Source: Nostoc sp. 'Peltigera membranacea cyanobiont' 210A
Lineage (GTDB): Bacteria > Cyanobacteriota > Cyanobacteriia > Cyanobacteriales > Nostocaceae
Assembly: GCF_002246015.1 (NCBI RefSeq)
Contig: NZ_NOLJ01000012.1
Coordinates: forward strand, 69,455 to 133,454
Length of the DNA stretch: 64,000 nucleotides
Direction: 5' to 3'
Of this stretch, positions 30,212 to 63,980 are shown in pieces (position 1 is the stretch's first letter; each line of letters starts with the position of its first letter). The notes below the pieces were generated by a model. The model did not search any database. It worked only from the letters and a program-made list of their open reading frames with translations, and had not been told where the DNA came from. Both the position numbers and the translations under genes were made by a program.

Positions 30212-31093
30212 ATGGCTATAACTCAAAACTATAGATTAAACCTGATTCAATGGTATCCAGGTCACATTGCAAAAGCTGAAAGGAAGCTCAAAGAACAACT
30301 GAAGCGCGTAGATGTGGTGTTTGAGGTACGAGATGCTCGGATTCCCTTAGCGACTCACCATCCCCAAATAGGTGAGTGGGTAGAAGGTAAGGCACGGGTG
30401 TTGATACTTAACCGAGTAGATATGATTACGCCACAAATGCGATCGCTATGGATCGATTGGTTTAAACGTCAAGGAGAAGTCCCTTATTTTACCAACGCTC
30501 AACATGGTAAAGGTATAGCAGAAGTAGCGCGGGCAGCGCAAGCCGCTGGGATAGAAGTTAATCAAAGAAGAAGCGATCGCGGGATGTTACCCCGTCCAGT
30601 GCGGGCTGTGGTGATTGGTTTTCCCAATGTCGGTAAATCAGCTTTAATTAACCGCCTGTTGGGAAAGCGAGTCGTGGAAAGTGCAGCCCGTCCTGGGGTA
30701 ACTCGCCAACTACGCTGGGTGCGAATTTCCGAACATTTAGAATTGCTAGATGCTCCTGGTGTCATCCCTCTAAGATTAGAAGACCAAGATGCAGCCTTGA
30801 AATTAGCTATTTGTGATGATATCGGTGAAGCATCTTACGATAACCAGCTAGTAGCAGCAGCCTTAGTGGATTTACTCAACTATTTAGAAGCTGTAGCAGG
30901 AGATTTATTACCAAAAAAACCATTACAGTCTCGCTACCAACTCGATTCAACATCAGACACCGGAGATACCTATTTACACGCCTTAGCAGAACATCGTTAC
31001 AAAGGTGATGTAGAGCGAGCAGCAAGGCAACTTTTAACAGATTTTCGCAAGGGGTTGTTGGGTGAAATGAGTTTGGAATTGCCACCTAATTAG
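30212..31093 (+). CDS. rbgA: Ribosome biogenesis GTPase YlqF/RbgA
   Basis: 293-aa circularly permuted GTPase assisting late 50S subunit assembly. The motifs come in the permuted order G4 (LNRVDM), G1 (GFPNVGKSALIN), G2 (GVTR) and G3 (DAPG). The N-terminal QWYPGHIAKAERKL is the family signature. Its last six codons and stop lie inside the left attachment site of the 22.5-kb element, so integration keeps the gene intact. Confidence 0.95.
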   Translation: MAITQNYRLNLIQWYPGHIAKAERKLKEQLKRVDVVFEVRDARIPLATHHPQIGEWVEGKARVLILNRVDMITPQMRSLWIDWFKRQGEVPYFTNAQHGKGIAEVARAAQAAGIEVNQRRSDRGMLPRPVRAVVIGFPNVGKSALINRLLGKRVVESAARPGVTRQLRWVRISEHLELLDAPGVIPLRLEDQDAALKLAICDDIGEASYDNQLVAAALVDLLNYLEAVAGDLLPKKPLQSRYQLDSTSDTGDTYLHALAEHRYKGDVERAARQLLTDFRKGLLGEMSLELPPN

Positions 31094-31135
31094 ATTACAA
31101 GCATTTTCAGCCGTTTGTGAGTAGCAGGTGAGTAG
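31070..31135 (+). repeat. attL with paired arm-like repeats
   Basis: Core AGTTTGGAATTGCCACC then one variable base and AATTA (31070-31092), spanning the end of rbgA. Inside the element follow TGAGTAG at 31118 and 31129, 11 bp apart. Confidence 0.85.
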
Positions 31136-31138
31136 TAT

Positions 31139-32287
31139 TCAAAAGTCTGGGCACTCAGCTTTGGTGACATCTGGGTGGCAATAGTACTTCAAAACTGTTT
31201 GAACAGTGTCACCGATCCAGTAGGCCACCTTTTCCGGTGATGCTCCAGAAGCGATCGCCCAAGTGGCGAAAGTGTGCCGAGTGCTATAAGCCTTTAAGTA
31301 GGGAATTATGCCCCGATCTGCTAACTCTATTACCACACCGCTATAGCGGTATCCCCCGGCATCGTGTGCCCTCCAGCATTTATCTAAAATGTTTGAGTTC
31401 AGCCTTTCCCCAGTAGTGCTTTTAAAAATCAGTTCTTTTGGATCTGGGGAATCTGGTTTAACCTCTGCAAGCAAGGATTGCAGTTTTGAGCCGTGCTTGC
31501 AGGAGAACACACGCCGTTTATTGTTTTTGGTTCCCTTGAGGACACGAACACGAGAGGCGTAGGCTTTTGTAATAGAGATTCGGGTGCATTCGCAGCTCAC
31601 ATCACCCCAGGTCAAAGCAAACGCTTCTCCATGTCGGCATCCAGTCCAGAATAAAAATTTAATCAGAACACTGTAGTGTGAAAATTTTGAGTGGGATTCA
31701 AAAGCAGAGATGATTAGATCCCTTTCTTCTAGGGTGTAAGCTTTTTTGTTATTTTCGTCGCTGGAGCTTTTGGGACTTGGTAACTGGATCTTTTCAAAAG
31801 GGTTGGAATTAATTAAGCATGAGTCAATAGCCCATCTACAGCACCTAGAAAAAGCCAGAAGTGTCTTATAGGCAGTATGGTAGCTATATTTAGCTAGCAG
31901 CCAATCTCTGATTGCTGGAGCATCTTCGATTGGTTCATTTGATAGCTCGACGACAATTTTAGTTATTTGCTTATAATCACTTTCTAGCGTTGAAGGCTCT
32001 AAATGTTGAGATTGGAAAGTTAAGAATTTATCCCATAACTTATCTAAAGGTTCTTTCTCTACTGGAACTACAATGTTTTGGTAATCTCCAAATTTATATG
32101 ATTTCAACGTGAAATCAAAACGTCCTAATGCGATATCTCGCTGAATTTCTTCCCAGCGAGAATCTACAATTATTCTATTTTTAGGCAAATTTTTAAGCCC
32201 AGTAGATAGATAAAATTGCTTGCTGTGACCATTAACCCTAAAGCGAATATTTAATTTTTGCGTCTTAGGATCGACGGTTACAGCCAT
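31139..32287 (-). CDS. int: Tyrosine site-specific recombinase (integrase)
   Basis: 382-aa phage-type integrase. The N-terminal arm-binding domain begins KLNIRFRVNGHSKQFYLSTG, followed by a SAM-like core-binding region (about 90-170). The catalytic domain shows Arg in TGCRHGEAFALTWGDV, box II as YSTRHTFATWAIASG (Y in place of the usual first His) and the nucleophile Tyr in VLKYYCHPD. It is adjacent to attL and reads out toward it, as expected for the enzyme integrating this element. Its ATG lies within the end of the upstream 205-aa gene (10-bp overlap). Confidence 0.95.
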   Translation of the reverse strand: MAVTVDPKTQKLNIRFRVNGHSKQFYLSTGLKNLPKNRIIVDSRWEEIQRDIALGRFDFTLKSYKFGDYQNIVVPVEKEPLDKLWDKFLTFQSQHLEPSTLESDYKQITKIVVELSNEPIEDAPAIRDWLLAKYSYHTAYKTLLAFSRCCRWAIDSCLINSNPFEKIQLPSPKSSSDENNKKAYTLEERDLIISAFESHSKFSHYSVLIKFLFWTGCRHGEAFALTWGDVSCECTRISITKAYASRVRVLKGTKNNKRRVFSCKHGSKLQSLLAEVKPDSPDPKELIFKSTTGERLNSNILDKCWRAHDAGGYRYSGVVIELADRGIIPYLKAYSTRHTFATWAIASGASPEKVAYWIGDTVQTVLKYYCHPDVTKAECPDF

Positions 32288-33445: not shown

Positions 33446-34696
33446 TTACTTTGACCACCTCCAGCCCAAGCGATCGCCATTTCCTTCCACTTCCCCCAAT
33501 CCCCTATCAGCCATAGAAACGAAGAAAATCCGTATTTCGTCTGGCTGCATATTGTCGAATAACCGCGTAGCTCGACTGAGATGAGCAGCTTTTAAAACTT
33601 CACCTGGGTGCTGTTGACCCCAGTCAAGGATAAATTGCTCAAACTCATTCATGGGTTTAGCTTGCTCTTGCACCTCCTCATTTCCCCCGCCGGAGGTTTC
33701 CGGCTGCTCCCTGCTCCCTGCTCCCCAACTGCTCAGGTCAAGTTCACAAGGGCAGTCATCGACCATAAACCTTTTTTTACCACCAGCTTTCAACCACTGC
33801 TCTAGTTGAGGATCTTTAAGTTTAGTCCTGGCGTAGTCGCGCCCAAACTGCCCCAAACGCACCAAACAAAAGCAGCTGTAAAGGGTGTCTTTGTCACCTT
33901 CTAACCCGAAATTCTCCGCCGTATCGTTTTGAGCTAGCGCACAAATGAACTGTTTATATCGCCTGCCCCGTTTGGCGTGGCGTTTTATCCACGGTCTAGA
34001 GTTGCCGCACTCGTCCACCAAAATCGGGAATTCCTCAGCGATCATGAACCGTTCCCGACCGGCGATCACGTTGTCCCCTCCTTCACCCCTAAGCTGAACT
34101 AGGTCTTCGAGAATTTCTAAGTCTTTACCCATTGCGGTGTCGATGGCTTTGAAATTCCCCTTCCTGCCAATGACATCGGCTTGATCTAGCCATGACCAAT
34201 CATCCGGTTTAGCGTCGCTGTCATAGACAACGACACGACCACCGATTTTGGAGGATAGGTACTGGGTAAAAGTTGACTTCCCGTCGCCAGTGCCACCAAT
34301 CAACGCAACGTGTTTTTGCTTCTTTTGGATGTACTCAACTGGGTCTGTAATCAGGTTCTCTGGTTTCCAGTTCACATCGATGCTGCCAACAGTAACAGCC
34401 AATTGTGCTGTTGGCTGAGTGTTGTTCCTTGCCCACGCCTGGAAATTGACCCGTGATGCTCGGTCGATATCACCGAGTGATTCTTGCAGGAGTTTGGCTG
34501 TTTGGCGATGTCTGCGACCTACTTCTAAAGTGCCAACTGAGGCCGCTAGTATCCACGGCTTAGACTCTGGCTTTTGGCTTGCCCCCAGGAACAACAAGCC
34601 ACAGCTGACAGCCAGACTACCCCAGAATGACCACTTGGCGCAGGCGTACATTTGCAAGTGCTGGTGTAGCTGGGAGGGGTGCAAGTCGCTGCTCAT
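33446..34696 (-). CDS. Membrane-anchored FtsK/HerA-type ATPase
   Basis: 416-aa P-loop ATPase. ATG 34696 overlaps the stop of the preceding gene (ATGA) and is preferred over longer frames. One or two hydrophobic segments lie at residues 25-60 (WGSLAVSCGLLFLG, PWILAASVG). Walker A is LIGGTGDGKSTF near 130. The Walker B-like strand is MIAEEFPILVDECGN, and a FICALAQND strand ends in the Gln typical of FtsK/HerA pumps. Such proteins move DNA in conjugation (coupling proteins), in chromosome segregation, or into capsids of tailless viruses. Here the context does not settle which. Confidence 0.75.
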   Translation of the reverse strand: MSSDLHPSQLHQHLQMYACAKWSFWGSLAVSCGLLFLGASQKPESKPWILAASVGTLEVGRRHRQTAKLLQESLGDIDRASRVNFQAWARNNTQPTAQLAVTVGSIDVNWKPENLITDPVEYIQKKQKHVALIGGTGDGKSTFTQYLSSKIGGRVVVYDSDAKPDDWSWLDQADVIGRKGNFKAIDTAMGKDLEILEDLVQLRGEGGDNVIAGRERFMIAEEFPILVDECGNSRPWIKRHAKRGRRYKQFICALAQNDTAENFGLEGDKDTLYSCFCLVRLGQFGRDYARTKLKDPQLEQWLKAGGKKRFMVDDCPCELDLSSWGAGSREQPETSGGGNEEVQEQAKPMNEFEQFILDWGQQHPGEVLKAAHLSRATRLFDNMQPDEIRIFFVSMADRGLGEVEGNGDRLGWRWSK

Positions 34697-35055
34697 ATCC
34701 CTAGCAATATCCCCACAGCGACTAACCCAACACGGAGCAGGAGAATATCCTTGACCTCTGGCACGGCTTGCCGCAAGTAAAGGGTGAAAATTCCAGCGAT
34801 CGCTAACACCCCCAACACCCCCAGGCGGATAAAACCAGGTATGGGTACACTTACCCAGCAGCTGCTTAACAAGGCGGGAATCGCCACTGTAGAAGCAAGG
34901 GTATAAGCTAAGTCTGGCAGATTGTCTGGGAGGGCGATCGCGTCCGCCCACCCCTTTTTAAATTCCTCCAGTTTGTTGGAATGGGGAATGGAGATTGGGG
35001 AATAGTGACCGCGATCGCTCGGAACCTCAACTACTATTTTTTGCTCATCTCCCAT
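34693..35055 (-). CDS. Two-pass membrane protein preceding the ATPase
   Basis: 120-aa protein from ATG 35055 (MGDEQKIVVEV). An acidic/basic soluble part is followed by hydrophobic segments (about 50-72 and 78-110). Stop and ATPase start overlap (ATGA), suggesting a membrane partner of the ATPase. Function unknown. Confidence 0.65.
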   Translation of the reverse strand: MGDEQKIVVEVPSDRGHYSPISIPHSNKLEEFKKGWADAIALPDNLPDLAYTLASTVAIPALLSSCWVSVPIPGFIRLGVLGVLAIAGIFTLYLRQAVPEVKDILLLRVGLVAVGILLGI

Positions 35056-38281: not shown

Positions 38282-39470
38282 AGCTATTCCACATTTAAGT
38301 TGCAATAGTAATATTACCCTTATTCTTAATTTTTCTTCCCCATTTAATAATTAATTCTCCTTGATTTAACAGCTTATCAAGTAAATTTTTTAGTTCATCG
38401 ACTGATTTAAATAACCTGTGGGCTACATATTCTTTAGCTGAATGCCATACCAATTCTACTAAATTCATATCTGGGCTATATGCCGGCAGAAAATATAGTT
38501 GAATGTTTGGCAACTCTTTCTCAATTGCCTCTATAATTACTTTCTTTTTATGGTAACTAGCGTTATCCAGAATAATTAAAATTACTGGGCCATTCTCGGA
38601 AAAATTAGATTCTAGATTTCCTGCTAAAACCCATTCTTTTTTCACAAATTCATTTAATTTTTTTAACTGCGCATAAAAAATTTCACCATTCCCTTTCTCA
38701 ATGAAATAACACATTCTCTTGCTGTCGTGATATCTTACTCCTCCCATTATATTTACACGCCCGCGACTCCTCTGACCTGTTACTTTTTTACTCGAACCTT
38801 TTTTGCTCCAATTTTTACGTCTAATTACCCTGAGACTAAAACCACTCTCATCCCAAAACCAGACTTGTAACCTTTCAGGGCAAGACTTTGAAGCTTCTAG
38901 ATATCCAAGCAGTTTTTCTTTAAAGACCTCTCTTTTTATCGGATCTTGCTTATCCTCTAGACTGTATTTTGCCCAAAGGTAAGCATACTTTTTTTGCTTT
39001 AATATTCTCCTGACTTGTTCTCCGCTTAACTTAATATCAGTTCTTTTGTCTAAATATGTAGCTAATCTTGCTGTTGTCCATCGTCCAAATTCATAGCCTA
39101 ATTCACTTGGTTCTTTGTCAATAACTTCCATTAATAATTCAATATATTCATTTGTTGCTTTCTGGTAATTTCCTTTTCTCCTGCCATCTTTTAGACTTTC
39201 TAAATTGTCTGGATCACCATGAACACACCAATATGCTACACTTCTACATGAACAGCCTAAAAATTCACTTATCTCCTGATAAGTTTTTCCATCATTCATC
39301 AGAAGTAACATCAATATTCTCTGTATAAATTGAGAGCGATCGCTATCTTTTAAAGCTTTTTGTAAATTGTCTTTTTGAGATTGAGCTAGAAACCCTTTAG
39401 CAGGCATGATAACGCTATAGACACGGATATATCTATTTTACCATTTATGCAATTTAAATGTGGAACAGCT
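38282..39470 (-). mobile_element. IS630 family insertion sequence
   Basis: 1189 bp. Terminal inverted repeats of about 23 bp, AGCTATTCCACATTTAA at the left and the matching AGCTGTTCCACATTTAA read inward from the right (two differences over 23 bases). TA is duplicated at 38280-38281 and 39471-39472, as expected for the family. Confidence 0.93.
38295..39407 (-). CDS. IS630 family transposase
   Basis: 370-aa full-length DDE transposase. The N-terminal HTH region shows KTYQEISEFLGCSCRSVAYW. The DDE triad lies in WFWDESGFSL, LILDNASYHKKK and SPDMNLVELVWHSAKEY. No frameshift, so probably active. Confidence 0.95.
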   Translation of the reverse strand: MPAKGFLAQSQKDNLQKALKDSDRSQFIQRILMLLLMNDGKTYQEISEFLGCSCRSVAYWCVHGDPDNLESLKDGRRKGNYQKATNEYIELLMEVIDKEPSELGYEFGRWTTARLATYLDKRTDIKLSGEQVRRILKQKKYAYLWAKYSLEDKQDPIKREVFKEKLLGYLEASKSCPERLQVWFWDESGFSLRVIRRKNWSKKGSSKKVTGQRSRGRVNIMGGVRYHDSKRMCYFIEKGNGEIFYAQLKKLNEFVKKEWVLAGNLESNFSENGPVILIILDNASYHKKKVIIEAIEKELPNIQLYFLPAYSPDMNLVELVWHSAKEYVAHRLFKSVDELKNLLDKLLNQGELIIKWGRKIKNKGNITIAT

Positions 39471-40074: not shown

Positions 40075-40409
40075 GCGACGAAATCAGAGTAACTATCTAC
40101 CAGCCAAAGCGAATTCCTAATGTTTACCGCCCACCGATGGGCTTCCCCCTGAACTGGAAGGACGAAACATCAGGAGAATTGCCCCATGCAGTTTTCAGAT
40201 TTTTTGGATCTCACCAACTCTCCCCCGAAGAAATCAGCTTAATCGCCGAATATTGCCAGCATTACATCAACGCCCCTTGCTGGGATGCCACCGGCGGATT
40301 TCCTGCCGAGCTAGCATCGCTGCGACAATCAGCTAATTCAATTTCTAGCGTTAGCGGGATTAACCAGTGGATTGATGGCTGCCTTCAAATTGCGATCGAC
40401 CCGTTTTAA
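40071..40409 (+). CDS. Hypothetical protein
   Basis: 112-aa protein. No known domain. Third of three overlapping genes before the replication protein. A weak hairpin at about 40431-40451 follows. Confidence 0.55.
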   Translation: MSDEIRVTIYQPKRIPNVYRPPMGFPLNWKDETSGELPHAVFRFFGSHQLSPEEISLIAEYCQHYINAPCWDATGGFPAELASLRQSANSISSVSGINQWIDGCLQIAIDPF

Positions 40410-40574
40410 TTCTCGAAAAAAAAATTCACCAACTTAGAAGTTGATGAATCAAAACCAAAATAAACAATAAAAAATGAACAAATACTTAATAAGATTAAGC
40501 GGTCAAATAACCGTTACTTTCTCACATTCTACCACATTAAATAATTCAAAGCTAGCTAATCGGGGGACAGAACG

Positions 40575-43181
40575 ATGGTAGTAGTTCCCTATACATACAC
40601 TGAAGAACCAAACTTTAAACCTGATAATAACAGGCTTCCACCATGCAACATTGAAGCAGAAGAAGGGATATTAGGTGGAATACTTCTTGACCCGAATGCA
40701 ATCTATAGAATCAAAGATAGATTAAAGCCAGAACACTTTTTTATCGGCGCACACAAGGATATTTACCAAGCCTGCCTAAGACTTTGCAAGAGAGGGCAGC
40801 CAACAGACTTGTTGCACGTTACTAGCTGGCTATCAGACCATGAATTGCTAGCAAGAATTGGTGGCAGAAATAAGCTAGCTAGCCTTTTCGATAGAACTGT
40901 TAGTGCAGTCAACATTGATAGTTTAGCGTTTTTAGTTATTGAAAATGCTTGGCGTAGAAAAGCAATAATAGATGCTAATGAACTCGAACAATTGGCTTAC
41001 GATACCCAGACAGAATGGGCAGATGTTTCTGTAGCATTTGAAAATAAAATTAAAGACCTTTTCTCAGCACCAGTAGCGCCAACAAAAGAAGAAAATCAAC
41101 TCTGGCACTACAACCAGCTAATTAGTGAACTAGAAAACATCTACCTCAAAACCTCTAATCCTGGTCTGAAACTATACAAGCTTCAAGAATTAGCTAATGC
41201 TAGTCCTGGCAGAAGAGTTAAAGACCTCGAAGACCTCTACATGAAATCGCTGTGTGCCACAGTTGAGTCACGAAAAACCTTAGATGAACTTGAGGAGGAA
41301 GTAGGCACACAGGGAAGAAAGTGGCTTTTGGGCGGAATACTTCCACAGGCAACCACAGCACTAGTAATCGCCGATGGTGGCGTTGGTAAAACCAAATTTC
41401 TTTATGATTTACTGCACTGCATAGCCGAGGGTAAAAACTGGAATGGATTTCCTGCCACCGCCGACAGCCGCCGCGTTCTTATCTACCAGGGAGATGAATC
41501 CAAACACGATATGCTCCAGGCGCTCAACAAGCGCGGCTTTAAACCAGGAACCCAAGTTCGTAACAAAACAGGAGTCAGATTTGGCTGGAACACAGACGCC
41601 ATGCCGACTCTGTACGAAGATGCCGCCGAATTTAAACCTGCGATCGTGATGATTGACTCCTTGACCTTTGTTAATCGCTACTCCCTTTACGACGAAAACA
41701 GAACAGAATATTCCCGCCCCGTCCTGGAGCTAAACAAGTTCGCGGCAGAAACAGGGATAACCGTAGTCATTGTTCACCACACCAACAAAAACGGAGGGTC
41801 TAGGGGGACGACAGCAGTTAGAAATGCTGTCTCAGAAGTTATCAAACTGGAGAAAGACCCCAACCCCAGCGCCAACCCCCAAGAGAAAATTCTCACGATC
41901 GAGAAATCGCGATCGCGCCGCTTCCCCACAAGCTATCGCCTGTTCTTCAACGAAGAAGACTTTAGCTTCTCCCTGTTAGAGGAAGTGGGACAAGAATTAG
42001 GTTCGCCGGACAATTCCACTAAAGACCGGATCATCAAATTTTTGCAGGAACACGCCAACAAGAAATTTGAAGCTGAAGAAGTAGCTCACTATATCAGCAC
42101 TACCTCTGGTAACGCACGGCGGTGTTTATCGCAATTAGCCAGAGATGGACTAGTAAACCTTGACGAGAGAAGCCTTAGTGGTACGAAGAAGCTGTATTAC
42201 ATCGCTCGTGATACCGAAAATTGTAGTACAGAAAAATCGTTACCAAGCGTAACAATAACATCGTCTACGCGGATCACCTCTGAAAATGACTCAAATGCTT
42301 ATCAGGCTGAGTCGAACAGTGAAATCAATGATGTGTATAAAAACGATGGATCACCTGTGATCACCTCTATGATCACCTCGGCGGATCACCTTACCAACCA
42401 CAATACCAACCATTCTACAGAAAGCGTTTCAACTCAAAACTTGCCAGAGAATTTGGAAGGTGATCATCTAAGTACATCAGAAATTGCAATTTTATCAAAT
42501 CCCGAATCAGAAGAAAAAATCGATGTTCAGACAGATCACCTGATCACCTTCGCCGCAAACGCAGAGGCAGTAAGCAATCCAGAAGGTGATCCGGTAAGGC
42601 GATCGCAAGGTGATCACGAGGTGATCCGAGGTGAACGCGATCGCCTCGATGACAACAGTGGTGTACTACATCAGCAAAAACTATCAGAACTGGGTTTTAA
42701 ACTTAAAGACACAATCCGTATTACTGCTTGCTCCGGCAGACCAGAACTGATTGGGCGAGAAGAAACCATTGCACGAATGTCTGATAAATCCATTAGGACT
42801 AAATCTGGATTATTTTTTGCGATCGGTGAATTCGAGAAATGCTCTCCATCAAAAAACACCCGTAGCTTTACCAGCTTCCAGAGCGGTGATATCTGCCACT
42901 GCTCTCTTCACAACAAGAAAGCCAAAATCCAGGAAATAATTGTCACCAAAGGAGAGGCTAAAGTAATTCTTGCTGGCGATATAGATGTAATTTGCGTGAA
43001 GCTATCCGACCTCACAGTATTAACTTGGCAGCCGATGTTAACTCAACCTGCTATGTATGGCGGAGAGTTGGTCATGGTAGTGGGGTACGATTCCGGGAAA
43101 AGACAATATCAAATAGAAACCAGTGCCAATCGAACCTACTACGTCAAACCCAGTAAACTAAGCAAACCTGACAAAGCCTGA
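40575..43181 (+). CDS. Replication protein: DnaB N-terminal domain plus RepA-type helicase
   Basis: 868-aa protein. Residues 20-125 are a DnaB_N-like domain (PPCNIEAEEGILGGILLDP). Residues 250-450 are a RepA/RegA-type RecA-fold ATPase with Walker A ADGGVGKTKFL, Walker B IVMIDSLTFVN, and VVIVHHTNKNGGSRGTTAVR. Residues about 480-545 are a winged helix (EEVAHYISTTSGNARRCLSQ). A Ser/Thr-rich low-complexity stretch (565-685) coincides with an iteron-like DNA repeat. Two SH3-like segments end the protein. A GGGGGA ribosome site precedes the ATG. Likely loads or acts as the replicative helicase of the excised element. Confidence 0.85.
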   Translation: MVVVPYTYTEEPNFKPDNNRLPPCNIEAEEGILGGILLDPNAIYRIKDRLKPEHFFIGAHKDIYQACLRLCKRGQPTDLLHVTSWLSDHELLARIGGRNKLASLFDRTVSAVNIDSLAFLVIENAWRRKAIIDANELEQLAYDTQTEWADVSVAFENKIKDLFSAPVAPTKEENQLWHYNQLISELENIYLKTSNPGLKLYKLQELANASPGRRVKDLEDLYMKSLCATVESRKTLDELEEEVGTQGRKWLLGGILPQATTALVIADGGVGKTKFLYDLLHCIAEGKNWNGFPATADSRRVLIYQGDESKHDMLQALNKRGFKPGTQVRNKTGVRFGWNTDAMPTLYEDAAEFKPAIVMIDSLTFVNRYSLYDENRTEYSRPVLELNKFAAETGITVVIVHHTNKNGGSRGTTAVRNAVSEVIKLEKDPNPSANPQEKILTIEKSRSRRFPTSYRLFFNEEDFSFSLLEEVGQELGSPDNSTKDRIIKFLQEHANKKFEAEEVAHYISTTSGNARRCLSQLARDGLVNLDERSLSGTKKLYYIARDTENCSTEKSLPSVTITSSTRITSENDSNAYQAESNSEINDVYKNDGSPVITSMITSADHLTNHNTNHSTESVSTQNLPENLEGDHLSTSEIAILSNPESEEKIDVQTDHLITFAANAEAVSNPEGDPVRRSQGDHEVIRGERDRLDDNSGVLHQQKLSELGFKLKDTIRITACSGRPELIGREETIARMSDKSIRTKSGLFFAIGEFEKCSPSKNTRSFTSFQSGDICHCSLHNKKAKIQEIIVTKGEAKVILAGDIDVICVKLSDLTVLTWQPMLTQPAMYGGELVMVVGYDSGKRQYQIETSANRTYYVKPSKLSKPDKA
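42272..42626. repeat. Iteron-like cluster of GGTGATC/GATCACC
   Basis: Eleven exact copies in 355 bp, starting at 42272, 42349, 42359, 42371, 42384, 42459, 42534, 42542, 42585, 42609 and 42620, on both strands and in different reading frames of the rep gene. Candidate replication origin. Confidence 0.7.
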
Positions 43182-44473: not shown

Positions 44474-46564
44474 ATGAGTACCTCCAGCATAATTGGAAGT
44501 ATGCAATCAGCCTTGAATTGTGCTGGTAAATGTGATTGCTGTGATAAATTACAGCAGCAAATAAATGCTATCAATGCTCGACTTTCAAGTGTTAAAAATA
44601 TTGATGAAAATGCTCTGAAAACATCAATAAAAGCTTCACTACAACCAGATTTATTTACTGCTGTAGCTGCTGCTGGTGTAGTGATTACCAACAAATTACA
44701 ACCACAGGTGGAAGCCATTAGAAAAACGGCATCCGACGCTTTTCTGGAAGCAGTGGAGAACACGAAAAAACAAAAATTACTAGAGATTGAACAAAGAGGA
44801 GTAAGTGAAACCGCTACCAGGGCGGAGAGGAATGCTGCCGAATATGCTCGACAGATGAGGCTAGCCCAACAGGAATTGACAGCAGCAAAAGGGGAGCAAG
44901 CACGATTAAATCGTGTGAATAAATCCCTTGAGCTAGCTGACACAGAACTTAGGGAGTTAAACACAAAAAATACCCGCGAAGCCGAACGACTGGCGACCAT
45001 AGAGCGCAAGAATGCGGGGAAGTTCAAAGCTTTAGAGGACACCGCTATTGCTGCCAAGAGAGAGGCGGAACTAGCGAAGGGCTTATCTAATCAAGCTATT
45101 AGTAAATCAGCGGAAGCTGTAACTGAATCCATAACCGCAAGCACCAAAGCTGCCACTGCTGGTAGGGACGCACTGAATCTATCAACAGAGATATCTGGTT
45201 TACGAGGAGTAGTGAATGGTTTCGGCGCGAAACTAAACGCTTTTGGACGCGCTGTTGCAACACTTGAAAAAGCCGTGGGTGATGCGCTAGTGACAGCTGC
45301 GGAAGCGGTCGGTATCTCCAAAGGAGCACTAGCCGCTACCGGAAGACTTGCGGGACAAGTGCTACAGATTTTCAATGTCATCGGTACAATTTTCACGATT
45401 CTTGATGGCATGGCAACAAGGATCGTGCTTGGTGAGCGCATTGATGCTGTAGAAAACGCTGTAGTGGCATTAGGTAGCGACCTGTCCCGTGTTCTCGGTA
45501 AGTTGTTGGGATTTCAAAACCGTATCGGTGCTAATGAAGCTCTCACAGCACAAGTGAAAAATATTGCCCTTGATGCCAAAGGTATAGGCGAAGCGGCTAA
45601 ATTGCAAGCAGGAGCAGCGCAGGTGACATCTGCTAGGGCGCAAGGCATTGCAGAAAGTGCTTTAGGTAATGCCAAACAAGCCCAACTGACATCTGATGGT
45701 GCAGTTCGGAATGCCGCGATCGCAAACGAGAACGCTACGACAGCTTACAAGCAAGGTGTCAAGGCGGAAGGTATCGGGCAGCAAGCTGCAAAACTCGGTG
45801 GTCAAGCGCTTGAAAAAGCGGGTCAAGCGCTGGCACTAGCAACAACAGCAATTGCAACAGTTCAGTTAGTCAGGAGCTTGCAAGGACTGAGGGGGCTAAA
45901 GGGCGACAAAGGAGATAAAGGCGATAGAGGATTCCAAGGAGCGCCCGGTATTCTAGGGCGTGATGGGATTACGACTGTTGTCCAGCTACCAGGCAGAGAC
46001 GGAAAGGACGGCAAAAACGGCAGAGACGGTAAAAGCGGGTTCCCAGGCAGAGACGGAAAGGACGGGAAGGACATGGGGCAAGCAGAAGTATTTGAATTGA
46101 AAGCGTTTATCGCAACACAACATCAACAAACGCAGGGTGTCTTAGGTAATGCAATCGCAGGTATTAAAGCATCAGTAAATACTGGTTTTGCTACCGTGGT
46201 AAATGCTTCAAGCGCTGTCGTAAATGGCGCAAATTTAGCACTATTGAACGTCGTTAACGCGAAACTAGGAACACAAGTAACGGGTGGCATTGGTGGATTA
46301 ATTACGAAAATTGCTGAAAATTCGTACATCGATAAGGCGCTTGCTGTACTAACCTTCGCAACTACATTGCACAATGCTTTGATGTTGACGAACAATCTTG
46401 CTCAAACGCTTGGAAGCATTATCAATACTGTGTTGGGATTAGTCCTACCAAAGGGTTTAGATGGAAATCCGATTGAGATTGGAGCGGTAATTGGAAAAAC
46501 AACAACGGGAGCATCCCAATTTTGCAAAAAGAGGGTGAGAAGACCAGTTTATTCGCGACTATGA
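44474..46564 (+). CDS. Coiled-coil/collagen-like protein, 5' part (truncated by IS)
   Basis: 696-aa product as it now stands; the last 18 or so residues are IS-encoded. N-terminal Cys cluster (CAGKCDCCDKLQQQ, residues 16-30). Long Ala/Glu-rich coiled coils run through about 100-230 and 330-470. Two Gly-X-Y stretches lie near 471-497 (GLKGDKGDKGDRGFQGAPG) and 506-533 (GRDGKDGKNGRDGKSG). A hydrophobic C-terminal region ends LDGNPIEIGAVIGK. Collagen-like trimers with coiled coils suit a fibre or spike. The ancestral protein had 854 aa. Confidence 0.8.
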   Translation: MSTSSIIGSMQSALNCAGKCDCCDKLQQQINAINARLSSVKNIDENALKTSIKASLQPDLFTAVAAAGVVITNKLQPQVEAIRKTASDAFLEAVENTKKQKLLEIEQRGVSETATRAERNAAEYARQMRLAQQELTAAKGEQARLNRVNKSLELADTELRELNTKNTREAERLATIERKNAGKFKALEDTAIAAKREAELAKGLSNQAISKSAEAVTESITASTKAATAGRDALNLSTEISGLRGVVNGFGAKLNAFGRAVATLEKAVGDALVTAAEAVGISKGALAATGRLAGQVLQIFNVIGTIFTILDGMATRIVLGERIDAVENAVVALGSDLSRVLGKLLGFQNRIGANEALTAQVKNIALDAKGIGEAAKLQAGAAQVTSARAQGIAESALGNAKQAQLTSDGAVRNAAIANENATTAYKQGVKAEGIGQQAAKLGGQALEKAGQALALATTAIATVQLVRSLQGLRGLKGDKGDKGDRGFQGAPGILGRDGITTVVQLPGRDGKDGKNGRDGKSGFPGRDGKDGKDMGQAEVFELKAFIATQHQQTQGVLGNAIAGIKASVNTGFATVVNASSAVVNGANLALLNVVNAKLGTQVTGGIGGLITKIAENSYIDKALAVLTFATTLHNALMLTNNLAQTLGSIINTVLGLVLPKGLDGNPIEIGAVIGKTTTGASQFCKKRVRRPVYSRL

Positions 46565-46642: not shown

Positions 46643-47718
46643 ATGACCCCAGAAGATAAAAAACAGTTGGATGCACACGTAAAAGCCATCGCCAAGATTC
46701 TGTATAAAAACACGCCACCCTCAAAAATCGAAACCTTTGAAGGAATCGAAACAGCCGTTCGAGATCAGGTACTGGAACACGTCAGCCCGAAAATCGCTTT
46801 TTTTTTATTGGAGAAAAAACGGGAACGACCAGAGGACGCAGCCGAACCATAAGAAGTTGTGTCGGGAAAATAATCATCACAAGACTTCAAGCATTGCGTT
46901 TGGGAATAGAACCATATAGGCGATTTAGCCCACTGCTAGAAAAGTGCTGTTTATTACTGGCAGCAAACGTTTCATTCCAAGATGCAGAAAAAGACTTAAA
47001 GGTGATGACCGGGATAGAAGTAGGTCATAGCACCTATCATCGTCAAGTCCAGAAGGTGGATACATCCCCTCCAAACGTCAAACAGAAATTAACAGAAGTG
47101 TGTTTGGATGGGGGAAAAGTACGGTTACGCTCTCAAGAGAAAGGAAAACCTGCGTACTGGAAAGAGTATAAAACAGGCAGATTGCAGGGGATATATTACG
47201 GAGCATTCTTTCAAGATAATCTCGGACTTACTAATTGGGTCAACAGTCAAAACATCGGTAAAACACTTTACTGCTTAGGAGATGGACATGACGGGATATG
47301 GAATCTATTTGCAGAAATAGCCGATTCGGATATTCGGCAAGAAATTTTAGACTGGTATCATTTGAAAGAAAACCTGTATAAAATACGAGCCACTAAAAAA
47401 TTTCTGGTGGACATTGAAGCTGAACTTTGGCACGGACAAGTAGAACCAGCAATCACCAAACTCAAAAAATGCAAATATGTGGGAGCAACCCAGTTCATCA
47501 ACTATCTATGTAAACACCGACATCGGTTGATAAATTATATGTACTTCCAAGCAGAACAATTAAGCTCCATTGGTTCTGGAGCAGTGGAGTCAGCCGTCAA
47601 ACAAATAGATAAGCGACTACAAATAGTAGGAGCTTGCTGGAAGTATGAAAATTTACCACAGATGCTGTCTTTACGTTGTGCCTACTTAAATGGCTTCCTA
47701 GCGCCCAGCTTTGGATAA
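46643..47718 (+). CDS. ISKra4-like transposase, probable -1 frameshift
   Basis: Two frames. The first runs from ATG 46643 (MTPEDKKQLDAHVKAIAKIL) to a stop at 46852. The second covers most of the protein (RFSPLLEKCCLLLAANVSFQ, CLDGGKVRLR, LDWYHLKENL, GSGAVESAVKQIDKR). They join by a -1 shift on a run of nine T (46798-46806), giving join(46643..46804,46804..47718), 358 aa. The shifted reading across the joint (GEKTGTTRGRSRTIRSC) is the sequence I expect in this family. Programmed slippage, rather than a disabling mutation, is likely. Confidence 0.85.
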
Positions 47719-53391: not shown

Positions 53392-53552
53392 TGAGTAGCA
53401 TTTGAGTAGCACGATCGCTGCTTGCGATCGCTAAAAATGTGGTTAAAGATGGTGAGTCTGAGTAGCGATTGAGTAGTATGATTGACAGCCAAGGCTGAAA
53501 CTACTGTGTTTACAGGGGAGAAGCACATTAGTTTGGAATTGCCACCCAATTA
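53392..53552 (+). repeat. attR with paired arm-like repeats
   Basis: TGAGTAG at 53392 and 53403, and at 53459 and 53470, each pair 11 bp apart, then the core AGTTTGGAATTGCCACC (53530-53546), one variable base and AATTA. Confidence 0.85.
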
Positions 53553-54265
53553 AATCTAAATTCAAATAGTAAAAATTGAGAAACCTATTTGATTTTTAAC
53601 AGGACTTACGCAACTATCACAAGCAATGGCGCGGCTATACCGTCCTGCGCCCCAAACAACTAGGCGATAAACATGGTAACGTCTTGACTTTTAATTGCGG
53701 AGCTAAATAATTTGACAACAATCTATGCTTGATTTGATAAATTGTTTGACTAGTTTTATCAGCTAAATCTTTGAGCTTAAACTAGACTAAAATTAATTGA
53801 TTTATTGGAGTAGCACATAGTTACTGAAAAATTCGATCGCACTAGATATCAGAGCCACTTGAAACGACCTAATACTACACAAATAACAGCGACTAACGGT
53901 TTATGAAAAATGGATATTTGCCAATAAAAGTACTCGTGGCTTAAGCATTACGGCATTATTTTCTGGGATGAGCGGTACCAATAAAACTATGTCCGCAGAA
54001 GTTATTGCCACTCACCAACTAAATTAATACTTCTTTGCTGTTGCTTCATGCCTTTCTTTGTCAGATCGAAAACTCTTTGACGGAGTTCTGATACTACTTT
54101 GGTAAATCATCAAAAAGCGATCGCCATTTTTACATGGAGGTGTTTTGCATTCCTATTTTTTACCTCCAGTGCCCCATACTTAATGCAATTTTTCTAACGT
54201 TTGTTAACCAAGATATGGTAATGGGAATTATAACACTAATATAAAGTAAATTTTCGTGAAAATTT
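53553..54265. other. Intergenic region right of the element
   Basis: Flank of the element and upstream region of the giant kinase gene. CAGGACTTACGCAA near 53601 matches the end of the MITE at 13461. A frame at about 53615-53710 reads HKQWRGYTVLRPKQLGDKHG and may be the decayed end of a gene. Nothing else supported. Confidence 0.45.
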
Positions 54266-60845: not shown

Positions 60846-63800
60846 ATGGAAAAACAGCAACCCTTCTCCCTCAAGCAGATTTCTTCAGAGGATTGGGAAA
60901 ATACGCCGCAGGATGTGAAGTCTCTGGTAGAATCACTGCTAGCAAGTGCGGCTTTATTAGAAAGCCAAAGCCGTCTCATTCAATTTCTAGATGCCACCCC
61001 CATTGCGATCGCTGTCCACGACTCAACAGGGCAACTTGTTTACATAAATCATCTGGCACAGGCATTGCTAGACACCGATCGCCCATTAGAACTGAGTCCA
61101 GACCAACTCTCAGAAGTCTTTCAAGTTTACCGTGAGGGCACTCAGGCTCTTTATCCCTTGGAAGCGTTACCAAGTAATCGGTCTCTGGCTGGGGAAACGA
61201 TTTGGGTTGACGATCTAGAAATTCATCGTGGCGATCGAGTGATTCCTCTGGAAGTTTGGGCGACTCCGATTTTTGGCGATCGGGGTGAGGTGACGTATGC
61301 GATTGTGGCGTTTCAAGATATTAGCGATCGCAAACGCCAGCATTTAGAACAGCAGATCGTCGAAAATACCCTGGTGAAAAGTGAACGCCGCTACCGCCAG
61401 GTGATCGAGGTACAAACAGACTTGATTCTGCGATCGCTACCGGACACCACCATTACTTTTGCGAACGATTCTCTTTGCCTTGCTCTCGGTCAATCCTTAG
61501 AGAATGTGATTGGATGGCGATGGAGTAGCTTTGTACCGCCAGAGGATTTAGACGAGTTGTCTCGCAAAATTGCAGCTCTCACCCCAAAAAACCCAATCTT
61601 TGAAAACATCAATCAAGACTACCGCTCCAACAACCAGATTGGCTGGACACAGTGGATTAACTTGGGGATTTTTGATGAGCATGGACAGTTGACCGAAATT
61701 CAATCGGTGGGGCGAGACATCACCGCATTACAGGAGCAAATTCAACGTGAACAAGCTCTAAATCGAGTTTTCCAGTCCATCCGCAACTCCCTTGATTTAG
61801 ACACGATTTTTGCCACCGCGACAGCAGAAACGGCGAAACTTTTGAAAACCCTAGATTGCTTTGTGGTGCAATATCTGCCAGAACAGGGCATTTGGAAACA
61901 TATTGCGGAATTTCGCCACAATCCAGACGCACCAACAGTCATTGGCTTTGAGATTCCCGATGTGGGTAATCCCTTTGCGGCTCAACTCAAGCAGTTGCAA
62001 ATTGTGCGGGTGGAAAATACAACCAACCTAGATAATCAGATTAACTACGAAGTCGCCCAAATCATACCCGGCGCTTGGTTACTCATTCCCCTAGTAATTG
62101 AAGACACCCTGTGGGGGAGTTTCACAATTATATCGCCCCAACAACCGTTTACCTGGAGCGATAACCAGATCAAACTGGCCCAGTCCGTCGCCGACCAACT
62201 GGAGATCGCGATTCACCAGGCCAATCTTTACCAAAAAATACAACTGGAACTAACGGAACGCCGTCGGGTGGAGATGGCTCTGAGAGAAAGCGAAGCCCGC
62301 TATCGCTTGTTAGCCGAAAATACCAACGATCTCGTGTGCCTTCACGAGTTGAATGGTCGATACCTCTACGTTAGCCCGTCTTGTGAGTTCCTCTTGGGCT
62401 ATAGGCACGACGAAATGCTCAGAGAAGATATCCATACCTTCATCCATCCCGACGATCGCGATCGCGTTTACCAAGAAATTCGGACAGCGGTATTCCGCAA
62501 AAAACTCACACCCATCACCTACCGAATGCTTCAGAAGCGTGGCAACTATGTCTGGTTTGAGACCCTCACTAAGCCCATTCTGGATGCGACGGGTGAAATT
62601 GTTCAACTGCAAACCACCTCCCGCGATGTAACAGAACGCATCCAGGTGCAAAATCAGTTGAAACATGATGCCCTACACGATGGGCTAACGGGGTTGCCCA
62701 ATCGCCATTTCTTCATGAAACGGTTGGAATTAGCTATTCAACGAGCCTACCGTCTCGAAAATTATCATTTTGCCGTTTTATTTCTCGATCTCGATCGATT
62801 CAAAGTCGTCAATGATAGCCTGGGACATTTGGTAGGAGATCAATTACTCATTGCCATTGCTGAAAAACTCCAAGCCACCCTCCGTAAAATGGATCTCGCC
62901 GCTCGTTTGGGTGGCGATGAGTTTGTGATCCTACTTGAAGAAATTAAGGATATTCAGGAAGCAGTTCGGATCACAGAACGGATTTTTGCAGAGTTGCAAA
63001 CACCCATGATGATTGAAGGACGTGAAGTATATACGACCTCTAGCGTTGGTATTGTCTGGGGTACAAAAGACTACGTTCAAGCCTCCCACTTGTTGCGAGA
63101 TGCTGATATTGCGATGTATCGAGCAAAAAACAAGGGCAAAGCCCGGTATGAAATTTTTGATACTGAGATGCACACTCAAGCTTTGAATCGACTACATTTA
63201 GAAAACGATCTGCGCCGAGCAATCAAGTGTCAGGAATTTGTCCTTCACTATCAACCGATTGTTGCTCTAGACACTAGACATCTTGTTGGTTTTGAAGCAC
63301 TGATTCGCTGGCAACACCCTACCCAAGGGTTGAAATTTCCCGGAGAATTCATCCCTATAGCTGAGGAAATAGGACTGATTACGCTTTTGGACTATTGGGC
63401 AATTCGTACAGCCTGTTATCAGATGGCAGCTTGGCAAACTTCTTTCCCGGAACTTTCTGCAATGAGAGTGAGTGTCAATCTCTCGGCGCAAGATATAAAG
63501 CAGTCCGATCTGTTAGAAGAAGTCGATCGGGTTCTGACTCAAACCCAATTGAATGGTCGTTACCTGACGTTAGAAATTACCGAAAGTATGTTGATTGAAG
63601 ACATTGAGTCTACGATTAGTGTACTGAGCCAGTTGAAAGAGCGAGGAATTCAAATTAGCATTGACGATTTTGGCACAGGATATTCATCGTTAAACTATCT
63701 TCACCGTTTACCTGTGGATAGTCTGAAGGTCGATCGCTCTTTTGTAAATCAAATTCAATCAGGCAAAAAAAATCATCAGATTGTCGAAACTATAGTGGCG

Positions 63801-63980
63801 CTGAGTAACCATTTAGAACTCGATGCGATCGCTGAAGGCATAGAAACTCAAGAACAACTGGAACACCTACAACACCTTGGCTACAAATTCGGTCAAGGGT
63901 ATCTATTCTCGAAACCCATGAGCCACAACACAGCAGAAGCACTTTTAGCAAGTAAAAGCTTGTATAACCTTTGGTCTTAA
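60846..63980 (+). CDS. PAS/GAF diguanylate cyclase - phosphodiesterase (GGDEF-EAL)
   Basis: 1044-aa cytoplasmic c-di-GMP enzyme. PAS domains at about 40-165 and 180-300, a GAF domain at about 308-456, another PAS at about 475-600, GGDEF at 605-770 and EAL at 790-1040. The cyclase motif is intact (LGGDEFVILLEE near 688). The phosphodiesterase signature is EALIRW near 816, with DDFGTGYSSLNYL and ETIVALSNHL further on. Both activities are possible; one usually dominates. It follows the trifunctional kinase on the same strand by 211 bp and may act downstream of it, which is inference. Confidence 0.94.
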   Translation: MEKQQPFSLKQISSEDWENTPQDVKSLVESLLASAALLESQSRLIQFLDATPIAIAVHDSTGQLVYINHLAQALLDTDRPLELSPDQLSEVFQVYREGTQALYPLEALPSNRSLAGETIWVDDLEIHRGDRVIPLEVWATPIFGDRGEVTYAIVAFQDISDRKRQHLEQQIVENTLVKSERRYRQVIEVQTDLILRSLPDTTITFANDSLCLALGQSLENVIGWRWSSFVPPEDLDELSRKIAALTPKNPIFENINQDYRSNNQIGWTQWINLGIFDEHGQLTEIQSVGRDITALQEQIQREQALNRVFQSIRNSLDLDTIFATATAETAKLLKTLDCFVVQYLPEQGIWKHIAEFRHNPDAPTVIGFEIPDVGNPFAAQLKQLQIVRVENTTNLDNQINYEVAQIIPGAWLLIPLVIEDTLWGSFTIISPQQPFTWSDNQIKLAQSVADQLEIAIHQANLYQKIQLELTERRRVEMALRESEARYRLLAENTNDLVCLHELNGRYLYVSPSCEFLLGYRHDEMLREDIHTFIHPDDRDRVYQEIRTAVFRKKLTPITYRMLQKRGNYVWFETLTKPILDATGEIVQLQTTSRDVTERIQVQNQLKHDALHDGLTGLPNRHFFMKRLELAIQRAYRLENYHFAVLFLDLDRFKVVNDSLGHLVGDQLLIAIAEKLQATLRKMDLAARLGGDEFVILLEEIKDIQEAVRITERIFAELQTPMMIEGREVYTTSSVGIVWGTKDYVQASHLLRDADIAMYRAKNKGKARYEIFDTEMHTQALNRLHLENDLRRAIKCQEFVLHYQPIVALDTRHLVGFEALIRWQHPTQGLKFPGEFIPIAEEIGLITLLDYWAIRTACYQMAAWQTSFPELSAMRVSVNLSAQDIKQSDLLEEVDRVLTQTQLNGRYLTLEITESMLIEDIESTISVLSQLKERGIQISIDDFGTGYSSLNYLHRLPVDSLKVDRSFVNQIQSGKKNHQIVETIVALSNHLELDAIAEGIETQEQLEHLQHLGYKFGQGYLFSKPMSHNTAEALLASKSLYNLWS

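Follow-up and report, generated by a model that had tools for sequence, protein, structure and literature searches.

Iterons inside a rep gene as the probable replication origin of an integrative element in Nostoc

A cluster of eleven short repeats in Nostoc sp. 'Peltigera membranacea cyanobiont' 210A is probably the origin from which a 22.5-kb integrative element replicates, and it lies inside the linker-coding part of the element's own rep gene. From the sequence comparisons described here we put the probability of this reading at roughly 0.8. An origin within its own rep gene had been suggested in the initial annotation of the window, that is, the whole stretch of 64,000 nucleotides that was analysed, and the suggestion is now supported by positional conservation, covariation and DNA-level selection in relatives. 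The features concerned are collected in Table 1.

The cluster consists of eleven exact sites of the 8-mer AGGTGATC, which include all copies of the 7-mer originally noticed. On the + strand seven sites read GATCACCT and four read AGGTGATC, and the eleven make use of three codon frames, so the observation that the copies fall in several reading frames was correct. Over both strands of the 64 kb there are 16 matches to GGTGATC where 4.79 are expected, and 11 of the 16 are found inside the cluster, against about 0.03 expected there by proportion; the earlier estimate of well under one copy for these 355 bp thus holds. Iteron motifs were scored as exact 7-mers, our own motif finder having given mixed registers. 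When codons were shuffled synonymously, with protein and codon usage preserved, no 7-mer occurred more than 7 times per 450 bp in 1000 shuffles (11 observed), and no 8-mer more than 5 times in 500 shuffles (11 observed). We are nearly certain that the cluster is real and that selection acts on it at the DNA level.

Table 1. Coordinates of the rep gene, the proposed origin and the element that carries them (window positions unless another locus is named).
Feature	Position	Strand	Remarks
att repeat, left	31070..31095	+	3' end of GTPase gene (30212-31093)
Tyrosine integrase of element	31139..32287	-	
P-loop ATPase	33446..34951	-	weak HerA/terminase-like matches
rep gene, 868 aa	40575..43181	+	proposed initiator-helicase
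DnaB N-terminal domain, residues 22-121	40638..40937	+	E 1.8e-25
AAA_25 RecA-like ATPase domain, residues 242-407	41298..41795	+	E 1.3e-23
Winged helix-turn-helix, residues 478-545	42006..42209	+	structure model; weak Pfam match below cut-off
Recognition helix, residues 511-523	42105-42143		
Disordered linker, residues 552-783	42228..42923	+	holds the iteron-coding stretch; pLDDT <50
Iteron cluster, proposed origin, 11 x AGGTGATC	42272..42626	.	start-to-start layout (> is GATCACC on + strand): > 77 > 10 > 12 > 13 > 75 < 75 > 8 > 43 < 24 < 11 <
Iteron 1	42272..42279	-	
GTATAAAAAC box	42335..42344	+	start 14 bp before iteron 2
Iterons 2-5	42349..42391	-	starts 42349, 42359, 42371, 42384; direct repeats, spacing 10-13 bp
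Iteron 6	42458..42465	+	inverted; left border of central region
Central 68-bp spacer	42466..42533	.	proposed unwinding element
Iterons 7-8	42534..42549	-	starts 42534, 42542
Iterons 9-11	42584..42626	+	starts 42584, 42608, 42619
att repeat, right	53530..53555	+	
Displaced copy in genome G330	L038:16906-17205 (contig 1)		non-coding, partly inverted

A Pfam scan of Rep returned only DnaB, AAA_25, a KaiC-type ATPase and a weak HTH, and neither a classical initiator of the Rep_3 type nor Phage_rep_O was matched in it. PDB profile and fold searches with Rep led to DnaB, and the ATPase profile search also gave RadA and RSF1010 RepA (1g8y, E 2.6e-5). In the structure model the winged helix has block pLDDT values of 91-94 over residues 481-530 and of 71-75 in the wing, and the C-terminal beta part is modelled at low confidence. 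The first repeat starts about 21 codons past the winged helix, where the modelled pLDDT falls short of 50. The description of the encoded segment as low complexity was only loosely right; what can be said is that it is unconserved as protein and modelled with pLDDT <50. The module that follows the linker (window ~42680-43181) is swapped among close relatives, the window and L083 having one type and L084 another.

Relatives of Rep were sought in three overlapping sets of genomes, from the order (74 of 388 matched), the phylum (64 of 386) and the family (53 of 217), and in 29 named loci, and 106 distinct proteins from the analysed loci were scored. A cluster was called when the count exceeded the shuffle maximum, from 40 shuffles per gene, by at least two. 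Among relatives longer than 600 aa with a match to the DnaB N-domain, 48 of 52 carry a cluster (L122, L056, L106 and L150 have no clear one), and in all 48 the start of the cluster precedes the end of the matched winged-helix region by 12 residues at most or follows that end; these counts, like those that follow, are of genes distinct in protein and are not independent, because close relatives were kept. AAA_25 proteins of more than 600 aa that lack the DnaB N-domain match have a cluster in 13 cases out of 33, in 12 of the 13 after the winged helix, and among proteins of 600 aa or less (short or cut) the figure is 3/21. Only one of the 64 positive genes, L075, has its cluster elsewhere than after the winged helix. 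An in-gene origin as a property of the whole AAA_25 superfamily was rejected, 20 of the 33 long proteins without the DnaB N-domain match being clusterless.

Seven plasmid-borne genes were examined, three with a clear in-gene cluster (pANACY.03, p057_I and HK-01 plasmid3) and four without a clear one; those of pANACY.03 and HK-01 plasmid3 are apparently L154 and L156 and are already contained in the counts for the 106 proteins. A search of viral_contigs gave no relative with the window protein as query and two with query A1. Some genomes contain several Reps of the family: in G669 these are L135 (GCTCGTA), L149 (ATCAGAT) and L150 (weak ATCACAT), and in G342 L006, L124 and L137 with GGATCAC-like sites and L138 and L139 with AAGTGAT.

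The view that selection acts on the DNA, put forward at the outset, gained support from two sides. In eight close relatives the identity to the window is 0.90 for iteron bases and 0.68 for the spacers from iteron 1 to iteron 11, and at third codon positions it is 0.92 for iterons and 0.66 for spacers. The second line of support is a displaced non-coding copy in G330; together with the conserved third positions it argues for selection on DNA rather than on protein. The rep gene of this genome (L056, L009, L038) retains three exact copies of GCTGATCA, and eight GTGATCA sites are located about 10 kb from rep, next to a gene whose family is integrase-like. The left part of the displaced copy aligns to the genome's own rep gene and the right part, in reverse orientation, to the origin within the gene of L109, a sister Rep whose motif the copy shares. 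Its poly-A tracts are retained, and the longest open frame that overlaps it by more than 90 bases has 52 codons. A GTATAAAA box, present in 20 of 51 other long DnaB_N-type genes at a place similar to that of the GTATAAAAAC box of the window, also occurs in it. On the simplest reading, this stretch would be an origin copy freed from coding.

The same data bear on the explanation that protein-level repeats, codon bias or chance produced the cluster, in favour of which are the disordered, poorly conserved linker and the passing of the count criterion by two control ORFs. As controls we used 80 other ORFs of at least 400 aa from the analysed loci, of which 75 were left after removal of five with runs of N. 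At least six copies of a 7-mer were present in 5/75, and 2/75 also passed the count criterion by exceeding their own shuffle maximum by two. Four of the five repeat-bearing controls have every copy in a single codon frame, as protein repeats do, and one of the two that passed has all copies in the same frame and orientation. The other is the fifth, a GGDEF/EAL gene at window 60846-63980 with six CGATCGC per 450 bp (shuffle maximum 4) in several frames and both orientations. In the Rep family, by contrast, both orientations and two or more frames are represented in 63 of 64 positive genes, synonymous shuffles never match the observed count in the window, the third codon positions of the iterons are conserved and the copy in G330 is non-coding. 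Chance, protein repeats and codon bias are rejected on the shuffles and the control ORFs, and we regard this explanation as hardly conceivable. CGATCGC, which we take to be the HIP1-type repeat, was also considered for the window and rejected, its sequence being different; it probably explains the cluster of L075 and that of one control ORF.

While the position of the cluster persists among relatives, its motif varies. In L092, from Nostoc favosum, 11 GCACAAC sites stand in place of the 11 GATCACC sites of the window, in the same order of orientations and mostly at aligned positions (the last three are shifted), and the two proteins are 88% identical over the matched 233 residues. L091 has kept the four-site block at aligned places with ATGCACAAC and diverges further on. 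The recognition helices read TSGNARRC in the window protein, SPANARRC in L092 and TDNNARRC in L091. Likewise, L098 and L057 have ATPases that are 93% identical and the motifs CAGCACCCC and CGATCACCCC, respectively. L089, with an altered helix (GSNTRRC) and yet unchanged GATCACC sites, argues against a simple code between helix and motif. Of the 64 clusters, 42 have a best 7-mer that contains GATC, compared with 2.1% of background 10-mers, and GATC-free 7-mers include those of L092, L091 (ATGCACA), L098 (CAGCACC), L107 (CTGCACC), L059 (AAGCACA), L135 and L148 (CTGGACA). The 39 distinct best 7-mers represent fewer iteron types, because shifted registers of one motif are included.

Covariation was quantified by partial Mantel tests on 41 of 50 keyed genes that were left after removal of near-duplicates; L092 was outside the set because its helicase part is incomplete. 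The helix was represented by residues 505-517, a range picked by eye before the model was made, which overlaps the modelled helix. The recognition helix correlates with the iteron given the ATPase (0.36, p 0.001) and given the remainder of the winged helix (0.363, p 0.001), and this remainder correlates with the motif given the ATPase (0.235, p 0.004). Shared descent is not fully removed, because the ATPase keeps a partial correlation with the motif of 0.22 (p 0.038) given the recognition helix. The initial annotation had proposed to check whether the repeat changes in step with Rep in relatives, and both the partial correlation of 0.36 and the switches in L092 and L091 agree with such a change. 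It is very likely, as far as comparative data can tell, that the encoded Rep reads the iterons.

The layout of the sites was analysed in 61 genes with at least seven copies and at least 400 aa, L075 included, which are not independent of each other. A mirrored plan, > 40-50 < 48-90 > 40-50 < (in bp; > a site, < an inverted site), is present in 23 of the 61. When gaps and orientations were shuffled 200 times, 3.2 genes on average and never more than 7 had it. The ranges were chosen after the layouts had been inspected; the first half only of the plan is found in 14 further genes. The window and its close clade, with 63-75 bp instead of the first 40-50, are outside the 23. Mirror pairs number 176 over the 61 genes (mean 127 and maximum 138 in 300 shuffles); the window alone has 3, which 21% of shuffles match and which is not significant. 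The central spacer of the window has 69% A+T, compared with 55% in the rep gene before the cluster, so that an AT-rich region adjoins the iterons, and the family-wide excess in the centre is small (mean 61% versus 56%).

Iterons often also act in copy control, handcuffing and incompatibility, and those described here could bind their own Rep and serve such purposes only, with replication starting elsewhere. This would fit two plasmids in which the minimum of the cumulative GC skew is not at the iterons (pANACY.03, minimum 30028, iterons ~95811; HK-01 plasmid3, minimum 56824, iterons ~10102). It is made improbable by the mirrored arrangement about a centre that recurs in the family, which is typical of origins, and by the lack of a second cluster in the window element, where the only copies of GATCACC beyond the origin stretch are at 39212 and 53174. 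In addition, no AGGTGATC with up to one mismatch is present in 40400-40590, before the rep gene. As in iteron-type replicons, there are several direct repeats, and they are not clustered elsewhere in the replicon.

The element in which the proposed origin resides has the integrase, the att repeats and the empty site in relatives that are expected of an integrative element. The att pair is an imperfect repeat with its first 17 bases exact. Where genomes of the same genus have an empty site, the two flanks of the element are joined directly and share 26-29 bases; this overlap corresponds to the att repeats and gives an element of about 22.5 kb. The empty site was recognised by alignment in G773, G738 and G757 (loci L188/L197, L189 and L196) and by coordinates in G240, G378 and G384:C161; in the flank alignment of nine loci, L187, L190, L191 and L192 match the left flank only, and L186 only the right flank, further out. 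Several relatives of the rep gene are on chromosome-sized contigs. Two ORFs in the element (window 38295-39407 and 46894-47718) are presumably transposase-like, by the look of their sequences, and for the one at 46894-47718 there was no Pfam match. The ORF at window 44474-46564 codes for a collagen-like protein with matches of the tail-fibre type, of a loose family found in 10/21 neighbourhoods. A search that covered a subset of the window ORFs gave no match to a capsid or relaxase. Since it covers only part of the ORFs, we do not name the element a phage satellite or an ICE (actinobacterial ICEs are treated in PMC3218068).

The HerA-like ATPase encoded by the element raises the question of a transfer or partition locus, with the repeats read by a DNA-pumping ATPase or a partition protein. 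Such readers of repeats exist; in Streptomyces, TraB reads clt repeats. However, the ATPase family is present in 5/21 neighbourhoods (several of them incomplete), in contrast to clusters in 48/52 long DnaB_N reps, the motif tracks the recognition helix of Rep, and no partition protein was found in the subset of window ORFs searched. We consider a transfer or partition locus very improbable.

If the cluster is the origin, the winged helix of Rep, directly N-terminal of the linker, would bind the 8-bp iterons, and the facing arrays would put Rep on both sides of the AT-richer centre, where the DNA would melt. The AAA_25 RecA-like domains of the same polypeptide may then form helicase rings, probably one for each direction, in a form of self-loading, and the DnaB-type N-domain may recruit the host primase.

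Comparable arrangements are known from other systems. Lambda O is not itself a helicase, and a separate loader, P, is used. In lambda and Stx phages, iterons (4 in lambda, 6 in Stx) and an AT-rich tract lie in the middle of gene O, and each lambda iteron is an inverted repeat (PMC7466680). For Rep a similar arrangement is proposed, with iterons and an AT-rich tract within the initiator gene, and the phage genes are a precedent for an origin in this place. In contrast to lambda O, the Nostoc Rep appears as a helicase-initiator fusion with iterons of about 8 bp, mirrored arrays in many relatives and no Phage_rep_O match. The Rep family with in-gene iterons is a new, diversified family. In RSF1010, RepA, RepB and RepC are separate proteins. 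Rep resembles RepA and DnaB in its AAA_25 domain, its profile matches to RepA 1g8y and the DnaB N-domain and its DnaB fold match, and adds to these a winged helix and an origin-coding linker in one polypeptide.

Geminiviruses replicate by the rolling-circle mode and their Rep protein is unrelated. Closely related geminiviral replicons often have different iterons that interact with the cognate Rep, and these iterons are upstream of rep (PMC12548392). The Nostoc family is similar in its iteron switches among related replicons and different in having the iterons inside rep. For cyanobacterial Rep proteins knowledge is described as limited (PMC10899382). CyRepA and CyRepX are plasmid Reps of cyanobacteria, CyRepX genes gave autonomous replication, and no Pfam domain was found in Slr6031 or Slr6090 (PMC10899382); a term search of the main text of that paper did not find the word 'iteron'. 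The gene taken as slr6031, by position only, differs from the present family in having no in-gene cluster. In the open-licence literature, from which subscription papers are mostly absent, none of the matches listed was recognisable from title and abstract opening as dealing with the Rep family or in-gene iterons.

RctB belongs to another initiator family with its origin outside its gene, and its 12-mers contain GATC. Replication of Vibrio cholerae chromosome 2, which has RctB iterons, requires adenine methylation (PMC2865523). The Nostoc iterons share the GATC, and for Rep a dependence on methylation is a possibility. Two matches to a PF02086 (Dam-type) methyltransferase are present in the organism's own genome, which together with the GATC-containing clusters makes the link to methylation testable.

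A wider reading, which we hold only tentatively and think somewhat less likely to be right than wrong, is that of a single-gene replicon with initiator, replicative helicase and dyad origin in one ORF. The origin would be placed in a linker that tolerates any iteron, and the family might have radiated through concerted conversion, in which all sites changed along with a few residues of the recognition helix. The outcome would be many orthogonal origins, most of them GATC-based, so that adenine methylation could gate initiation.

If the proposed origin is confirmed, the family would provide, as a natural series, initiators matched to their origins, among them very similar proteins with switched iterons. 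The joint change of specificity in a protein and a dozen DNA sites, and the self-loading of a fusion of helicase and initiator, would then be directly testable, and the members of the family would be candidate orthogonal replicons for cyanobacteria.
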